Shown in pieces: positions 22,564 to 29,277 of a stretch of 33,077 nucleotides of DNA; within the stretch, counting starts at the first letter, position 1, and every line of letters begins with the position of its first letter. This DNA comes from a virus: the IMG/VR virus record IMGVR_UViG_3300041955_000271, positions 1 to 33,077 of that record, one strand, 5' to 3'. The position numbers and the translations under genes were made by a program. The notes under the pieces were generated by a model, which had not been told where the DNA came from, did no database searches, and was given only the letters and a program-made list of their open reading frames with translations.

Positions 22564-23682
22564 ATGCCCCGTAACAGTTCAGGGACTTACGTGAGCCCCG
22601 CCGGCGACGCGGCCGTGACCGGCACGCCGATTTCCAGCGTGGCATACAACGGCCAAAATAGCGACATTGCGGCCGAGCTTACAAATTCAGTCGATCGCCT
22701 CGGGCGCGGCGGGATGCTGGCGAACCTCCCTATGGGGTCGAACCGCATCACGGGACTTGGAAACCCGGTCGGCGCGCAAGACGCCGTGACGCTTGCCACA
22801 CTGGAAAGCTATGCGGCGTCGCCGGGGCAAATGGCGCCACAGCCAAACAATACCGTATTGGCCAACATTTCCGGTGGGGCGTCGGCCCCCGCTGCCGTCA
22901 CGCTCGCGGCGCTTGCGGCGGCTGCCGCTCCAACCTTCGCATCGCTGCCGGGCGCGATCGGGCTCACGGTCTCAAACCAAACGGTGGCCTCTCCTTCAAG
23001 CCAGGTCAGCATCGCGGCGCTGAGTGCGGTAGTGGTCAACGCGGCGGGTCTTGGGGTTCAACTCACTTTTGTTTTAGAGACCGCCTCGCTCTCCGTTTCC
23101 GGCCTCGGCGGCCTCGATGTGGGAGCAGTCGCCGCGAATACTTGGTACAATGTTTATCTCATTTATAATCCAACAGGCGGCACGGCGGGCGCGCTCTTAT
23201 CGCTGTCGGAGTGGTCCCCCACGCTGCCGTCCGGGTTTACTTTCTTTGCCAGGCTTGGCAGTTGTCGGACAGACGGATCGAACAACCTTTATCGGTTCGT
23301 GCAGCGGGGAAACCGATTCCAGTGGGCGCTAACGGCCGGAACGAACACGACAAGCATGATGCTGCTTTCTGGAACAACAGGGAGCGTCACAACTCCGACA
23401 TGGACGCAGATCGCACTTTACTTTGTCGGGCCGACCGCGACCGCTGTGGATTGCGTGATGGTCAATAGTGGGACAACCAATTACATCGGGATAGCGGCCC
23501 CCAACGCCAATTACGGGGCGGCCGACTCCGCGTCCAACCCGCCGCCGATGCAGACGAATTCGACTTATTATACGGTCGTATCGAAGATTATCGTGCTTGA
23601 GACTTTCAACTTATACGCCGCTCTACAAAGCAACGTGGTCCTTTATGTTGCCGGGTTCGTCGATAGCGTCAACGCCTGCTGA
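22564..23682 (+). CDS. Tail fibre protein
   Basis: A 372-residue protein. Its N-terminus is the conserved virion-attachment segment of short-tailed-phage fibres: PRNSSGTYVSPAGD, TPISSVAYNGQNSDIAAELT, GRGGMLANLPMGSNRITGLG and DAVTLATLESYA. The C-terminal two-thirds are beta-rich with many Thr/Ser/Asn (ANTWYNVYLIYNPTGG, LYRFVQRGNRFQWAL), typical of a receptor-binding part, and no enzymatic domain is seen. It is the first gene after the ejection proteins and lies next to a small gene that may help it assemble. The fibre call is firm; the receptor is not known. Confidence 0.85.
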   Translation: MPRNSSGTYVSPAGDAAVTGTPISSVAYNGQNSDIAAELTNSVDRLGRGGMLANLPMGSNRITGLGNPVGAQDAVTLATLESYAASPGQMAPQPNNTVLANISGGASAPAAVTLAALAAAAAPTFASLPGAIGLTVSNQTVASPSSQVSIAALSAVVVNAAGLGVQLTFVLETASLSVSGLGGLDVGAVAANTWYNVYLIYNPTGGTAGALLSLSEWSPTLPSGFTFFARLGSCRTDGSNNLYRFVQRGNRFQWALTAGTNTTSMMLLSGTTGSVTTPTWTQIALYFVGPTATAVDCVMVNSGTTNYIGIAAPNANYGAADSASNPPPMQTNSTYYTVVSKIIVLETFNLYAALQSNVVLYVAGFVDSVNAC

Positions 23683-23697
23683 CCAACGGGGACCACG

Positions 23698-23973
23698 ATG
23701 ACTTACACACCCTTAACCGTATTTCTTCAGCCAGTCGGGGCCACGTCCTTCGTGACGCGCGACCAGATGCGCCAAGCGCTTTTGGCTCAAGGCGTCATAG
23801 AAGCCATTGATGAGGCGACGCCTGCCGGCAACAACAGCGCGGCGGCGGCCTATATGAACGGCCCTGTACTATCGTCCGTTGGTCCGGCCGCTGCGTTTAT
23901 CAAAACGACCCTTGGATACACACAAGCGCAAATGAACACGCTTTTCGCGCTGGCCGCGACCTTCACCTACTGA
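23698..23973 (+). CDS. Small protein downstream of the tail fibre
   Basis: A 91-residue protein with GGGGACC upstream of its ATG. It contains VTRDQMRQALLAQGVIEAID in the first half and ends TLGYTQAQMNTLFALAATFT, with two helical regions. I recognise no family. Its place directly after the fibre gene, 15 bases downstream, suggests a fibre partner or assembly factor, which is a guess from position. It is followed within 10 bases by the next fibre-like gene. Confidence 0.6.
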   Translation: MTYTPLTVFLQPVGATSFVTRDQMRQALLAQGVIEAIDEATPAGNNSAAAAYMNGPVLSSVGPAAAFIKTTLGYTQAQMNTLFALAATFTY

Positions 23974-23982
23974 GGCTATCCC

Positions 23983-25299
23983 ATGAAAATCGGAACACTC
24001 CTGCGGCTGCTGGTCGCGGGCGCTCTCTTGCTCGCCCCGGTCAAGGCGTCGGCCCAACCCTTAACCGAGACGACTTGGGGCGTCGATCGTTCGACTCCCA
24101 CGGCAGCGCCAATTTGCCTGATGCAAGGTGGGAGTTGTCTCGTCCAGATAGGTGTCGCGAATCTTTCGACGGGGGCTTGGGCGCTGCCCGGCGCGTTGCC
24201 GATAGCCAATCTTCCGGCATTTTCCGGTGGAGATTGCACGAGTTCGGCGGGGTCAATTATTCTTTCCTGCACGAAACTGAATGGCATTTCTCCCGGCGCG
24301 CTATTCTCTCTCTCGCCCGGGACGGGCGTTGCTACGGCGCTTGCCAATCCTGTTAACGACCTTACTCCCGGCCAATATGGCGTGTTGACGGGGGCGCTCA
24401 TTGGGACGGTCGGGGCGACAATCCCCCTGCTTAATGCCCCGGCAACTTGGGTTTATTCGCCCCCCGCGAATACGACCGCTTGGGTTTTCCAGCGCACATC
24501 TGCTTTCACCGGCGGAATCTCTGGTTATGAGACAGCCTCGGTTACCGCGATCACTCAAACGAGCGCTAGCGATGCGAACTATGAGGATGCTTTTCTTGCC
24601 ATCCTCAACAACTACTCGACCGCCAGTACGCTGTCTGAAAATACGGCGGGGCATTTCCAGGCCAACTCCTACGCGGATGGGGGTATTTGGGCTTTGGCGC
24701 TGGAAAATGACGATCGGACTGGAAACGCAAACCCGACCGCGCCGCATATCGGGATTGAAAACACGTTTCGAGTCAACGGCACGGACGCGAACGGCGAGCG
24801 CGTTATCTACGACGCCGTTTGCACTCGCTGGGGTGGCACGGGAGCGGGCGCCGTTTGTTCATACGGACTTCGCATCGCGACGCTTTCCCCCGATTACGCT
24901 GCTGGCGGCAGTATATCGACGGGCATTTCCTTTGGCGCCCCCTATGAACCGACACAGTTTGTCAATGGCATTGATTTTACATACGGATACTATTCCTCGT
25001 CTGCAATACAACTACCGCAAGGGGCGCAGATAAATTTTGGTGGGGGTGCCACCCGGAGCATTACTTATTCGACCAGTTACTTGCGTTACTCCAACGGATC
25101 GATAAATCTATTTGAAATAGACGATAGCGGTAATGGAACACTATACGGTAATGTTGTCGCGGCGCAACTTAAAACAACATCAGTTGCTTCGTGGGCCGCC
25201 CCGTCAAATTGTGGGTCGCTCACATCGTCAACGGAATGCTTTGTCGTGTTAGACCCGAATGGGAACAAAATGTATATTCCGGCATACGGGACTTACTAA
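23983..25299 (+). CDS. Fibre-like protein with Sec signal peptide and four cysteine pairs
   Basis: A 438-residue protein. The first 24 residues (MKIGTLLRLLVAGALLLAP, then VKASA) form a Sec signal peptide. The mature part is beta-rich, with Gly/Ser/Thr and fibre-like motifs (NLPAFSGGDC, GTLYGNVVAAQLKTTS at the end). Eight cysteines fall into four close pairs: CLMQGGSC, CTSSAGSIILSC, CTRWGGTGAGAVC and CGSLTSSTEC, as expected for disulfides made in the periplasm. Fibres are normally cytoplasmic until assembly, so a signal peptide is odd. It may be a fibre-related protein exposed on the infected cell, or a secreted decoy. The fibre likeness is a moderate call from style. Confidence 0.65.
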   Translation: MKIGTLLRLLVAGALLLAPVKASAQPLTETTWGVDRSTPTAAPICLMQGGSCLVQIGVANLSTGAWALPGALPIANLPAFSGGDCTSSAGSIILSCTKLNGISPGALFSLSPGTGVATALANPVNDLTPGQYGVLTGALIGTVGATIPLLNAPATWVYSPPANTTAWVFQRTSAFTGGISGYETASVTAITQTSASDANYEDAFLAILNNYSTASTLSENTAGHFQANSYADGGIWALALENDDRTGNANPTAPHIGIENTFRVNGTDANGERVIYDAVCTRWGGTGAGAVCSYGLRIATLSPDYAAGGSISTGISFGAPYEPTQFVNGIDFTYGYYSSSAIQLPQGAQINFGGGATRSITYSTSYLRYSNGSINLFEIDDSGNGTLYGNVVAAQLKTTSVASWAAPSNCGSLTSSTECFVVLDPNGNKMYIPAYGTY

Positions 25300-25324
25300 T
25301 CGGCAACAAAAGGAAAACGGAAAT

Positions 25325-25714
25325 ATGAAACGCATCGCACTCATCCTCATATCTCTTGCCGTATCCACTTCGGTATTAGCCGCCGATGCGCGCAAGATCG
25401 ACTTTACGCGGCCAATTCTGGACGGCGCGGGGATGCCAATGCACGAAACCGACGATAAGTCGCCCACGGCAACTGTCGGATTCGTCGCCTCGTTCGCGTT
25501 GTACAGGGCGGCAGTCGCCTCGGACCCGCGCGCGCCAGCCCCCGATGCGGTCAAGGTCGCCAAGCGCGCTATTTTGGCGCTCAAGATCGCTACCGCGACC
25601 GATGCGGAATTGACGGCCGAGGAAGTCAGCGAAATCAAGTCAGTCATAGGCATATTCCCGCCGCTTTATGTGCTGCGGACTCTCCAAGCCATAGACCCGG
25701 CGGCGGTGAAATAA
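25325..25714 (+). CDS. Small secreted phage protein
   Basis: A 129-residue protein from ATG 25325, chosen because AAGGAAAACGGAAAT precedes it and a signal peptide begins there (MKRIALILISLAVSTSVLAA); the longer upstream frame overlaps the previous gene. The mature part, DARKIDFTRPILDGAGMPM, then TVGFVASFALYRA, VKRAILALKIATA-type and LTAEEVSEIKSVIG segments, resembles a recurrent small phage family (KIDF...ILDxDG) that normally lacks a signal peptide. Function unknown. It precedes the outer-membrane protein and is probably translated with the fibre genes. Confidence 0.6.
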   Translation: MKRIALILISLAVSTSVLAADARKIDFTRPILDGAGMPMHETDDKSPTATVGFVASFALYRAAVASDPRAPAPDAVKVAKRAILALKIATATDAELTAEEVSEIKSVIGIFPPLYVLRTLQAIDPAAVK

Positions 25715-25734
25715 GTCGCGGTGCGCTGGTCGCG

Positions 25735-25752
25735 TGTTGTATTTTTACAACA
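25735..25752 (+). other. AT-rich perfect hairpin upstream of the Omp gene
   Basis: TGTTGTA (25735-25741) and TACAACA (25746-25752) form a perfect 7-bp inverted repeat with a TTTT loop, in the gap after the small secreted gene. Its AT-rich composition stands out in this GC-rich window. It may be an operator or a weak transcript end. No clear promoter could be located around it. Confidence 0.45.
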
Positions 25753-25851: not shown

Positions 25852-25877
25852 TTCCCCAAAAAACCCGAGGAAAAATC

Positions 25878-26852
25878 ATGAAAACTCGTCTGTTTATCGC
25901 GGCGGCGCTGTTCGCGTCGCTGGTCGGTGTCGGCTATTGCGTCCAGGCCAACGCGGCGGACATTCCGTCGAAGGCCGCGCCCTCTCCCGTCATCGTCGCG
26001 ACTCCCGTTGATTTGTGGGGCGGCGCTTATGGCGGCGTCATCGCTGGCGTCGGTTTCTCGACTGGTCATGCCACGTTGGACGCCTTCTCGAATGGCGTCT
26101 ACCAGTCCGGCGTCAACGGCCCCGTCCCGGTTTATACGGCCTATTCCTGGGCGTTCCCGGGCGTCGTCAAGCCGAATACTGACGGGTTCCTGACGGGGGG
26201 AACGCTTGGCTATAACCTGCGCTCGGGCTCGTTCGTTTATGGTTTCGAGGCGGACGCGGTGGTTAACGCGACGCCTTCGGGAACGTCGACCTTTCTAACT
26301 CCCGCCCTGGGTGTGGCTCCCGCCGTGGCTCAGATTGGCCGCGCCTGGAATTATGCGGGAACGGCCGACGCGCGTGTCGGCTATCTCGCGACTCCGAACG
26401 TGCTTGTCTATGGCAAGGGCGGCCTCGCCTGGGCCAATGAAAACGTCGGGGTCCAGTCGTTTGGCTCGGCTATGGGCGCGACCTACGGCAGTAAGGCGTC
26501 TTCTTCGCTCGTCGCCGGTTGGAACGTCGGCGCTGGCGTCGAGGCGCTGATTGGCTCCGGCTTCTCGATCAAGGCCGAATACAAGTTCGTATCGCTCGCC
26601 AAACAGACTGCCTCATTCGGCGGGTTCAATTACGGCGAGGCCCCGATCGGCACGCTCTCGACCTATCTTGGCTCGTATCGCCCCCAAGAGCACGTCATCA
26701 CGGTTGGCCTCAACTATCACTTTAACGCCTTCGCCGCGCCGGCTTTCACGGGGTCGCTCTATGCGCCCGTCACGGCGGCGCAGTTGCAAACCTACGCGAA
26801 CGGCCTGCCGCTGCCGGTGAACCTTTCGACCCTCCCCGTCCCGATCAAGTAA
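25878..26852 (+). CDS. Omp25/Omp31-like outer-membrane beta-barrel protein
   Basis: A 324-residue protein from ATG 25878, chosen because GAGGA precedes it and a signal peptide (MKTRLFIAAALFASLVG, cleaved near ANA-ADIP) starts there; an in-frame ATG at 25836 would add 14 residues. The mature part shows the pattern of alphaproteobacterial 8-strand barrels: WGGAYGGVIAGVGF (47-60), GGTLGYNLRSGSFVYGFEAD, DARVGYLATPNVLVYGKGGL, VGAGVEALIGSGFSIKAEYK and a closing strand EHVITVGLNYHF (271-282). Unusually, about 42 residues (rich in Ala, Pro, Leu) continue after the strand that normally ends such proteins. In hosts these barrels are abundant surface proteins. In the phage it may change the surface or replace a receptor. 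A terminator follows and a gap with repeats precedes it, so it resembles a cargo (moron) gene. Confidence 0.85.
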   Translation: MKTRLFIAAALFASLVGVGYCVQANAADIPSKAAPSPVIVATPVDLWGGAYGGVIAGVGFSTGHATLDAFSNGVYQSGVNGPVPVYTAYSWAFPGVVKPNTDGFLTGGTLGYNLRSGSFVYGFEADAVVNATPSGTSTFLTPALGVAPAVAQIGRAWNYAGTADARVGYLATPNVLVYGKGGLAWANENVGVQSFGSAMGATYGSKASSSLVAGWNVGAGVEALIGSGFSIKAEYKFVSLAKQTASFGGFNYGEAPIGTLSTYLGSYRPQEHVITVGLNYHFNAFAAPAFTGSLYAPVTAAQLQTYANGLPLPVNLSTLPVPIK

Positions 26853-26873
26853 CCTCTTCTTGGTCGACCCTTG

Positions 26874-26908
26874 CGCCGCGTGAGCCAAAAACTCGCGCGG
26901 CGTTTTTT
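26874..26908 (+). terminator. Strong Rho-independent terminator after the Omp gene
   Basis: An 11-bp stem, CGCCGCGTGAG (26874-26884) with CTCGCGCGGCG (26892-26902), has one G-U pair and a 7-base loop rich in A, followed by six T residues (26903-26908). It is the clearest terminator in the window. It ends the Omp transcript 20 bases before the endolysin start, so the lysis genes need their own promoter or readthrough. Confidence 0.88.
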
Positions 26909-26928
26909 GTAACTTTCGGGGGTTAAAA

Positions 26929-27387
26929 ATGTCTGAATTCGACGTGAAAAGCCCGCGCATCATGCGCGTTTTGAATGACCATTTCGGGCTCAAGGATTTC
27001 CAGTCGGCTGGCGCGCTCGGCAACCTCGGGCGCGAGTCGGCCGGTCTTGTGATTCTGCATGAAATTGGCAAGCCGGCGAACGAAGGCGGCGACGGCTGGG
27101 CGATGTGGACCGGCCCGCGCCGTCTGGCGTTTCATGCGTGGTGCGGACAGCACGGCGTTTTTTGGGAGTCCGACGAAGCCAACCTCGGCTTTCTGATTCT
27201 CGAGCTCTCGACCAATTTCAAGCCGACTGTCCTCCATCTGCGCGCGGCAAAAACCGTGGAAGATGCAACGGCGGCTTTCGAGAAAAGCTACGAAATGGCG
27301 GGCGTTGTCGCGCTGTCGGACCGCATCAAATACGCGCGCTCGGCGCTCGCCGCGTTCCGCGTTTCTCCGTTTGCGAAGGCGGCCTGA
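26929..27387 (+). CDS. Endolysin (phage-tail-lysozyme type)
   Basis: A 152-residue protein with GGGGG upstream of the ATG. It matches the phage lysozyme domain seen in tail lysozymes and some endolysins: SAGALGNLGRESAGLVI with Glu36 as likely catalytic residue, GGDGWAMWTGPRRLAFHAW and LGFLILELSTNF. The domain spans nearly the whole protein and there is no signal peptide, so release through a holin is expected. It is the first gene of a cassette of small membrane proteins, and its stop overlaps the next ATG (TGATG). It would cut peptidoglycan to release progeny. Chemistry (glycosidase) is by family knowledge. Confidence 0.85.
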   Translation: MSEFDVKSPRIMRVLNDHFGLKDFQSAGALGNLGRESAGLVILHEIGKPANEGGDGWAMWTGPRRLAFHAWCGQHGVFWESDEANLGFLILELSTNFKPTVLHLRAAKTVEDATAAFEKSYEMAGVVALSDRIKYARSALAAFRVSPFAKAA

Positions 27388-27509: not shown

Positions 27510-27739
27510 AAGGCTCAAAAATGCTCTCTATCAATCCGAACATGTCGGCCGCGCTCAATGTGGGCGTCGCCACGGCTGGGGCTCTCGCCGGCGCCACGGC
27601 GGAATTTACGACGCTCTTTGGGCAGGGTCCGGGCGCGAAGGCGGCGGCGGTCGCTGGCCTCGCGGCGCTCGTCCTCGGCGCGATCAACTCCGCGCTGCAT
27701 GGCCTGTCGAGCGACAAGGCCGGCGTCCTGGCGTCCTAA
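27506..27739 (+). CDS. Putative holin-like membrane protein
   Basis: A 77-residue protein from GTG 27506, or 72 residues from ATG 27521, where a ribosome site is not clearer. Two helices of moderate hydrophobicity, ALNVGVATAGALAGATAEF and AAAVAGLAALVLGAINSALH, flank a Gly-rich LFGQGPG turn, with a short polar tail. This pattern recurs in small membrane proteins next to endolysins of alphaproteobacterial phages. A pore (holin) role is inferred from place and shape. Confidence 0.65.
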   Translation: MKGSKMLSINPNMSAALNVGVATAGALAGATAEFTTLFGQGPGAKAAAVAGLAALVLGAINSALHGLSSDKAGVLAS

Positions 27740-28100: not shown

Positions 28101-28231
28101 CGCCCATGTTGTTGATCGGGGAAAATTACGCCACTCCCTCCCGGCCTACCAGGGCGGCTTTTTCTCATCACAAGTCTTTGTTTTTTATTGTGTGCAAAAT
28201 GGGTGCGGGCGCGTGGGGTTCTGGTGCGGGC
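28040..28231. repeat. Four copies of GGTGCGGGC around the integrase end
   Basis: GGTGCGGGC occurs at 28040-28048, inverted at 28090-28098, and directly at 28202-28210 and 28223-28231; the first three extend to GGTGCGGGCG. The last two fall in the 3' end of the integrase gene. Repeated sites near an integrase are often arm-binding sites. The Pro/Ala codons there could also explain two of the copies. Confidence 0.45.
28141..28163 (+). terminator. Weak terminator after the lysis cassette
   Basis: CCGGCC (28141-28146) can pair with GGGCGG (28152-28157) with one mismatch and a TACCA loop, followed by CTTTTT. It lies between the nested repeats and the integrase stop, facing the forward operon. The stem is short, so efficiency is doubtful. 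Confidence 0.45.
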
Positions 28232-29277
28232 TTAGGTTTGTTCTCGCTATCGTCCCGCGACAACTTCCTCATAGCCTGCCGCGCCAGCCTCTCTCGATCG
28301 GCGGCGCGGGTGTAAAGCGCGGCCATCTTGCCGCCGCTCCAACCGTAAATCGCCTCCAACTGTGCCACCGTGGCGCCGTTGTTCGCCGCGCGCGTTGCGC
28401 CCGCCTTGCGAAGCCCGTGCGCTGATCCTGGAACGGCCGCCGCTTTACAGGCGTCGCGAAACCAGTTCCCAAAGCCCTCTTTCGCCATTCCCGCGCCGTC
28501 TGCCTTGGCGATAAAAGCCAAGTCTCCGGTTTTTGTCGCCTCAATGACGGCGGCGAGTTCGGGCAAGAGCGGAACCACGATTTTCGCGCCGGTCTTTTCC
28601 GTGGTGAGCATAATTACGCCATTGCGGACGTGCTGACGGCCAAGGCGCGCCGCGTCGCCGCGTCTTAGCCCGGTGTAAAGCAGGATCGTCAGCGCCAGTC
28701 GCTCGCGCGTCCCGATAGGCCAGCAGGCTTCGAAGCGGTCTATTTCTTCCTCGGTCCAAGTGTGGAAGCCTTCGGTTTTTGGCGCGCGGCCCTGAATGCC
28801 GTCTGTAGGGTCGCTCTCGATCAATCCCGCCTCGGTTGCCCAGCGGAAAAGCCCTCGCATTGATTTGAGGAAGTTCCCGGCCGCGAACGGGGTAGCCTTG
28901 CGGTCCTCGATGCCCTGGCGGATGTGGCGCTTTTCGATCTCGCCGGCCGGCGTGGATCCAGCCTTCTCGATGACGTGAAGGAAGATATTTTCGCGCTGGC
29001 GCTTTGTCGCGGGGGATAGCGCCGCCCATGCGCCTGAATCGCGATAGCGGGCGATAAGCCATGACAGCGTTCCGGCGCTTTCCTTGGGCTTCCTGGGGGC
29101 TGCGGCGTCTCCCGTGACGGCGGCATGATAGGCCGCCATGAATTCCGGCGTTCCGAAGGGCTCTCGGATGCGGATGCGCGGGCCTTTGCCGACTCTCACA
29201 TACCAGACGCCCGCGCCGTGGCGCGTGGTTTCGCGGTGGAGATAGGGCGGTCGCGGGCGGCTCATGGCGTCCATCAA
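28168..29277 (-). CDS. int: Tyrosine-type site-specific integrase
   Basis: A 369-residue protein read leftwards. The catalytic residues are visible: Arg205 in TGLRRGDAARLG, Lys228 in TTEKTGAK, His287/Arg290 in AHGLRKAG, Trp313 in IYGWSGGKM and Tyr322 in ALYTRAADRE. The N-terminal half has the core-binding segment (LSWLIARYRDSGAWAALSP, then FLKSMRGLFRWATEAGL). The C-terminal tail past the Tyr is Pro/Ala/Lys-rich and codes through extra copies of a short repeat. Start could also be Met2 or Met5. It catalyses phage integration and excision. It is the last gene of the reverse operon and overlaps the 61-residue gene by 4 nt. Confidence 0.95.
   Translation of the reverse strand: MMDAMSRPRPPYLHRETTRHGAGVWYVRVGKGPRIRIREPFGTPEFMAAYHAAVTGDAAAPRKPKESAGTLSWLIARYRDSGAWAALSPATKRQRENIFLHVIEKAGSTPAGEIEKRHIRQGIEDRKATPFAAGNFLKSMRGLFRWATEAGLIESDPTDGIQGRAPKTEGFHTWTEEEIDRFEACWPIGTRERLALTILLYTGLRRGDAARLGRQHVRNGVIMLTTEKTGAKIVVPLLPELAAVIEATKTGDLAFIAKADGAGMAKEGFGNWFRDACKAAAVPGSAHGLRKAGATRAANNGATVAQLEAIYGWSGGKMAALYTRAADRERLARQAMRKLSRDDSENKPKPAPEPHAPAPILHTIKNKDL

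Follow-up and report, generated by a model that had tools for sequence, protein, structure and literature searches.

The phage genome analysed here, the whole of IMG/VR record IMGVR_UViG_3300041955_000271 (33,077 bases; hereafter the window), encodes a protein of the PF13505 superfamily whose sequence and model predict a barrel of the Omp25/31 type, with eight strands, an OmpA-type fold and export by Sec. Phage outer-membrane barrels are a known kind of protein; this one belongs to a clade of phage barrels that bear a loop-2 signature, mostly have long tails and are linked to endolysin genes. The export signal, family, fold, clade, tail, location and conservation of the barrel were computed. 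The favoured ranking of possible roles places an effect on adsorption or superinfection first, a phage-independent benefit to the lysogen second and a part in lysis third.

Sequence, family and predicted fold

The barrel frame was open over exactly the interval given in Table 1, and its product was matched by two Pfam profiles, PF13505 (OMP_b-brl; E 8.8e-9, 36.2 bits against a cut-off of 28.7) and PF01389 (OmpA_membrane; E 5.9e-7, 29.9 bits against a cut-off of 21). The signal, as read from the sequence (MKTRLFIAAALFASLVGVGYCVQANA, with AD following the cleavage site), is of the Sec type, with a charged n-region, a hydrophobic core and an AxA-type site. An AlphaFold (AF2) model built from nine sequences (mean pLDDT 61) placed 8 strands within residues 47-282, most of them in blocks with pLDDT 82-92, with pLDDT < 50 in the long loops and over the last 42 residues. 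The solved structures nearest in fold were OmpA, OmpW and NspA, OmpA being a near match (VIA-align Z 17.6, rmsd 2.8, 171 aligned), and fold matches (E down to 3e-7) were also obtained to BFVD ‘outer membrane protein beta-barrel’ entries from uncultured Caudovirales. The complete Omp25/Omp31-like barrel reported in a preliminary description of this DNA was thus borne out by the open frame, the Sec signal, the PF13505 score and the model.

Other searches with the barrel found no PHROGs family, no tblastn match among 50,697 GenBank phages, and just two phmmer matches among PDB sequences, both at chance level (E 0.09 and 0.14). An NCBIfam assignment as ‘CLIBASIA_05150 virulence factor’ was dropped, having scored 23.6 bits against a cut-off of 220.

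Genome context and flanking elements

The window encodes a terminase, a portal protein, a transglycosylase-bearing protein, fibre-like genes, a Phage_lysozyme2 endolysin and a tyrosine integrase, the last of which indicates that the phage is temperate. The closest terminases were those of Acetobacter and Rhizobium phages (49-51% identity). Pfam and PHROG searches gave no match for the second fibre-like protein, no counterpart of the small secreted protein was found in two close relatives of the phage (contigs G001 and G002), the holin candidate had no Pfam or PHROG family above cut-off, and inspection by eye showed no spanin pair in the window.

Table 1. Location of the barrel gene, its parts and its neighbours in the window
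Feature	Position	Strand	Basis or remarks
Tail-fibre-like protein	22564-23682	+	PHROG matches including tail fibre; conserved over about the first 85 residues only
Fibre-like protein	23983-25299	+	Conserved over about the first 66 residues only
Small secreted protein, role unassigned	25325-25714	+	ORF reading; atypical codon use
Weak terminator-like hairpin past the preceding ORF	25718-25740	+	Such sites in the region no commoner than chance
AT-rich inverted repeat TGTTGTA-TTTT-TACAACA, upstream of barrel	25735-25752	+	Sequence
SD-like GAGG	25867-25870	+	Sequence; GAGG kept in alignment of relatives
Outer-membrane beta-barrel gene (324 aa)	25878-26852	+	ORF; PF13505 and PF01389; AF2 model; relatives
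Sec signal peptide (residues 1-27)	25878-25958	+	Sequence reading; kept in relatives
Phage signature TSTFxTPxLGxxP[AS]VAQIGRA (residues 136-156)	26283-26345	+	Predicted loop 2 and start of strand 4 (model)
C-terminal tail, 42 residues past the last strand, predicted periplasmic	26724-26849	+	Model; length kept in G001 and G002
Strong intrinsic terminator 3' of barrel	26873-26909	+	26873-26903 with 12 pairs, 9 of them GC, then T6
Endolysin, Phage_lysozyme2 family	26929-27387	+	PF18013, E 1.1e-18
Holin candidate, small hydrophobic protein	27521-27739	+	Sequence reading
Tyrosine integrase	28168-29277	-	PF00589, E 2.9e-15; phrog_1, E 8.5e-43

The barrel gene had been described as lying between tail-fibre and lysis genes, which holds for its location, save that the small secreted ORF intervenes after the fibre gene. 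The terminator that follows the barrel, previously called the strongest in the window, ranked first both in pairs and in GC pairs among the 50 terminator-like sites listed for the window; it was kept in three phages, with G001 and G002 differing by one base at the innermost pair. The AT-rich hairpin noted earlier in the gap before the gene was recovered as an inverted repeat, the core of which (TGTATTTTT.CAACA) was retained in G001 and G002. As a repeated operator this palindrome was rejected, being present in a single copy within the window, and a structured RNA upstream of the barrel was likewise discarded (folding z-score -0.74, no Rfam match). A search for sigma-70-like promoters recognised none before the barrel.

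The window also encodes a NusG-like transcription antiterminator (1506-2195; PF02357, E 1.6e-5; phrog_6386, E 1.4e-11), which could allow read-through of terminators near the barrel.

Conservation in close relatives and accessory status

Contigs G001 and G002 were syntenic with the window over most of the genome (approximately 67-84% identity in long DNA segments), and their barrels shared 80% protein identity with that of the window over the full length, tail included. Between the window and G001, the barrel had a dN/dS of 0.20, which indicates that the protein is under purifying selection; the corresponding values were 0.10 (lysozyme) and 0.045 (terminase). The barrel gene's codon use (0.998) fell inside the core-gene range of 0.89-1.08, unlike that of the two fibres (1.28 and 1.30) and the small secreted ORF (1.20), and for this reason the barrel looks like an old resident of the phage. 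The stretch holding the fibres and the small secreted ORF (22564-25714) has codon use unlike that of the remaining phage and variable C-terminal parts, and on these grounds looks recently exchanged. The C-terminal parts of the fibres diverge between the window and G001 while the barrel remains 80% identical, and such a pattern of changing fibre tips beside a constant barrel offers no support for a match between the barrel and a single receptor.

These data bear on the suggestion that the barrel is a passenger, that is, a host gene recently captured near the attachment site and having no phage function. The integrase gene does lie 1.3 kb downstream of the barrel gene and the protein family is host-like, but synteny and 80% identity in two further phages, the dN/dS of 0.2, phage-like codon use, a separate phage clade (below) and an identity of no more than about 40% to any protein of the host-family genomes sampled largely refute this explanation, which we regard as very improbable.

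Among the other terminase relatives of the window, the barrel was found in none of 36 by protein search and in none of the 32 of these searched by Pfam profile, the latter search having detected all three known carriers; several of the 36 were short fragmentary records, some of them of the same kind as the window, and are uninformative on absence. The informative relatives were three prophage records of 34-39 kb (G007, G008 and G009; 75% terminase identity), which have structural genes in common with the window as far as the first fibre. G007 and G009 continue with their own fibre-type genes and then their own lysis genes, with no surface-related gene in the barrel slot. In G008 the slot between fibre and lysis genes holds an antisense hexapeptide acyltransferase-like gene (L062:11410-11976; PF00132 and PF14602), a gene type often serving surface modification, and this occupant would count towards a surface-modification reading of the barrel. 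From these comparisons the barrel appears to be accessory, present in some phages and absent from relatives at the same place.

A phage-specific clade among host paralogues

Host paralogues were sampled from 397 genomes belonging to a single Rhizobiales family. In this sample the window barrel had its best match in a gene of G256 (40% identity, E 4e-41), which proved to lie in a prophage, beside Phage_lysozyme2, Amidase_2-like and fibre-like genes; the best host paralogues reached 33-41% identity. A second prophage gene, that of G377, is located beside an M15 endolysin and joined the window type, together with G256, in the first tree. Additional members on viral contigs, which may be incomplete, were recruited by a tail-tip search (L155), a DNA signature scan (L183 and L184) and an alignment search (L189), bringing the membership to nine: the window, G001, G002, the two prophages and the four viral contigs. 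When the G256 barrel was the sole query against viral contigs, it brought up no relative.

A tree run without the signature and tail columns resolved eight phage barrels, L189 having come later, as one clade (support 97/98) that was nested among host paralogues yet separate from them, with long branches on the phage lines (1.2-1.5) and, of the nine phage sequences in all, two near copies (G001 and G002). Such a tree with host Omp25/31 proteins had been put forward in the preliminary description as a check of a host source; it placed the window barrel in the phage clade, apart from the host rows. The related idea that the barrel is a copy of a host receptor was not supported, since the best match in the sampled host family reached only 40% and itself lay in a prophage, the phage clade is separate and old, and codon use is phage-like. 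Recent acquisition from the host was rejected on the grounds of this codon use, the separate clade and the low host identity.

The barrel was the single protein common to the window and the examined G256 and G377 prophage regions, no other window protein having matched. We propose from these sequences that the phage barrels form an old lineage, derived from a host paralogue and moving between unrelated phages.

Barrels of related type without the tail were also encountered on further, unrelated viral contigs (L195, L202 and L210), some adjoining clear phage genes, and a wider set of phage barrels thus appears to exist beyond the tailed clade. These untailed Omp25-like barrels share about 25-39% identity with clade members and, on the IMG/VR contigs examined, have neither the loop-2 signature nor a long tail, unlike the clade; many such contigs (L191, L193-L221) were left outside it, and several may be host flank.

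The C-terminal tail and the loop-2 signature

Rhizobiales Omp25/31-like porin-family proteins resemble the window barrel in belonging to the PF13505 superfamily and in having a signal followed by AAD(L/I)PS...AP, but differ from it in their mostly aromatic end, their short C-terminus and their want of the loop-2 signature. The window barrel ends in the non-aromatic LPVPIK, whereas 71 of the 72 host paralogues carry a terminal Y, F or W, and with one exception among 137 the host paralogues have 0-14 residues after the last strand. The atypical tail of about 42 residues described previously is therefore real, and long tails are typical of the phage clade: 42 residues in the window type, 57-59 in G377, L155, L183 and L184, and 17 in G256. 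A helix was predicted, with low confidence, in the G377-type tail, and the resemblance between the window-type tail and those of the siphophages was weak.

The signature, in the form TP.LG..P[AS][VL]AQ, was present in all eight phage barrels (as a variant in G256) and in none of 72 host paralogues; two of the eight had been recruited by the motif itself, so that the unbiased count is six of six. One further signature match, L181, was a false positive. Loop 2 would face outward and the tail would lie in the periplasm, as we infer from the model.

Linkage to endolysin genes

In every clade member measured, the barrel lay 51-696 bases from an endolysin gene, upstream or downstream of it. The neighbouring endolysins were of several types, namely Phage_lysozyme2, M15 peptidase and GH19-like (the last below the Pfam cut-off), with or without Amidase_2. 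The window and G256 lysozymes, both PF18013, had no pairwise BLASTP similarity, and the linkage is therefore probably not one inherited cassette. A moron layout had been suggested for the barrel gene; its accessory status and its own terminator agree with this, but linkage to the lysis cassette describes the layout better than a generic moron slot.

The L183 barrel likewise has a strong terminator on its 3' side (seen as L190), and a class 3 lipase gene (L183:1511-2161; PF01764, E 8e-12) lies between that barrel and a holin-like gene. Elsewhere, an apparently decayed start of a Phage_lysozyme2 gene (L147:15010-15090) lies between an M15 endolysin and the barrel.

A part in lysis is kept under consideration mainly on account of this linkage to endolysin genes. 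The barrel would then be made late, with endolysin and holin, and its periplasmic tail would weaken the outer membrane or couple it to the degraded wall in a partly spanin-like manner. With the barrel no more than 0.7 kb from an endolysin gene in each member examined, late expression and a role at the lysis stage are at least as good a fit as a role in adsorption. An endolysin gene adjoins the barrel in all nine members though its type varies, long tails (helical by prediction in the G377 type) characterise the clade, and the window revealed no spanin pair by eye. Set against this are the strong conserved terminator between barrel and lysozyme in the window clade, the G256 tail of only 17 residues and the dissimilarity of the tail sequences between window and siphophage types; moreover, we know of no small barrel that breaks membranes. 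On balance a part in lysis seems improbable. A bolder version, which makes the tailed phage barrels an outer-membrane component dedicated to the lysis stage, with the barrel as anchor and a periplasmic arm, working with any endolysin that the phage happens to encode as a breaching or coupling device unlike known spanins, is more improbable still.

Putative hosts

Genes for methane/ammonia-monooxygenase subunits (PF02461, E 1e-104 or better) were detected in five of the six host-group genomes tested, including G256 and G377, and both prophages therefore live in what look like methanotrophs. By kinship only, the host of the window phage is probably a member of the Rhizobiales, and probably a methanotroph. 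Contigs of the window type and of the G377 type have two metagenome numbers in common (3300050119 and 3300031251), which is circumstantial.

The prophage ends of G256 and G377 both lie near an ispE gene (L139:5011-5883 and L144:12978-13853), which suggests a shared integration site. Host genomes of the G256 genus have an unusual expansion of Omp25/31-like paralogues, with up to about 60 candidates in G256.

Putative function and comparison with known systems

To our knowledge, phage-encoded outer-membrane proteins have seldom been studied outside the lambdoid phages. The Lc porin of phage PA-2 and Llp of T5 are phage-encoded envelope proteins that alter receptor availability; Lc is a large porin and Llp a lipoprotein, and any likeness to the window barrel would be one of role. 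The best precedent for a surface role, by analogy, is Lom, the gene for which adjoins tail-fibre genes of a temperate phage. Like the product predicted for the window gene, lambda Lom (Ail/OmpX/Lom family) is a phage-encoded, exported, 8-stranded outer-membrane barrel (PMC3342100, PMC4198210), and the Lom orthologue of phage Phi24B had similar expression levels in lysogens and during induction (PMC3342100). Lom nonetheless belongs to another barrel family, the Ail_Lom/OmpX Pfam family giving no match to the window barrel at E up to 0.1, and has hosts among the Enterobacteriaceae; the window barrel further differs in its longer loops, C-terminal tail and endolysin neighbour.

We favour, tentatively and at slightly less than an even chance, the reading that the barrel is a Lom-like accessory surface protein lowering adsorption or superinfection. 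In the proposed mechanism, a host Omp25/31-like paralogue would have been captured long ago, the resulting phage lineage then crossing between unrelated phages and settling beside an endolysin gene with its own terminator at the end. The product would be exported by Sec, lose its signal peptide and form an 8-stranded barrel in the outer membrane with four outward loops, including the phage-specific loop 2, and the tail in the periplasm. The altered barrel set on the infected or lysogenic cell may then reduce adsorption by the same or competing phages, as superinfection exclusion or by preventing re-adsorption of released virions. Arrival in the outer membrane, surface exposure, time of expression and the effect on adsorption are what we infer. 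The combination of variable fibre tips with a constant barrel offers no visible receptor match and may be counted against the adsorption reading, as the negative promoter search would be against independent expression in the lysogen.

The second-ranked explanation, which we consider unlikely, is that the barrel benefits the lysogen by changing permeability, nutrient uptake, adhesion or envelope stability in ways unrelated to phage adsorption. An OmpA/OmpW-like fold would suit such a role, the many paralogues of the host genus (up to about 60 candidates in a single genome) make barrel content seem to matter there, and Lom has been linked to adhesion (PMC4198210); the gene is, however, linked to lysis genes and not to an immunity region, and no promoter for lysogen expression was recognised.

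It is hardly probable at all that the barrel belongs to the virion and is displayed on particles instead of on the cell surface. The gene does adjoin fibre genes, and Pap31/HbpA of Bartonella, which like the window barrel is of the Omp31 type, was once reported in phage preparations, as a bacterial protein co-precipitating with the particles and not phage-encoded (PMC2697382); the signal peptide and barrel fold of the window protein speak against it.

Within a bacterial barrel family, this barrel marks out a phage-specific branch in which the exposed-loop motif is common to the members, a periplasmic tail is probable and the neighbourhood of lysis genes is stable in unrelated phages. The presence of a phage-specific barrel beside the lysis genes of unrelated viruses suggests that these viruses alter the surface of their own host cell, and with this branch one can test directly whether phage barrels shield cells against phages or assist in opening them. 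With two clade members residing in prophages of PF02461-bearing bacteria, the finding may also bear on how phages shape the surfaces of methanotrophs.
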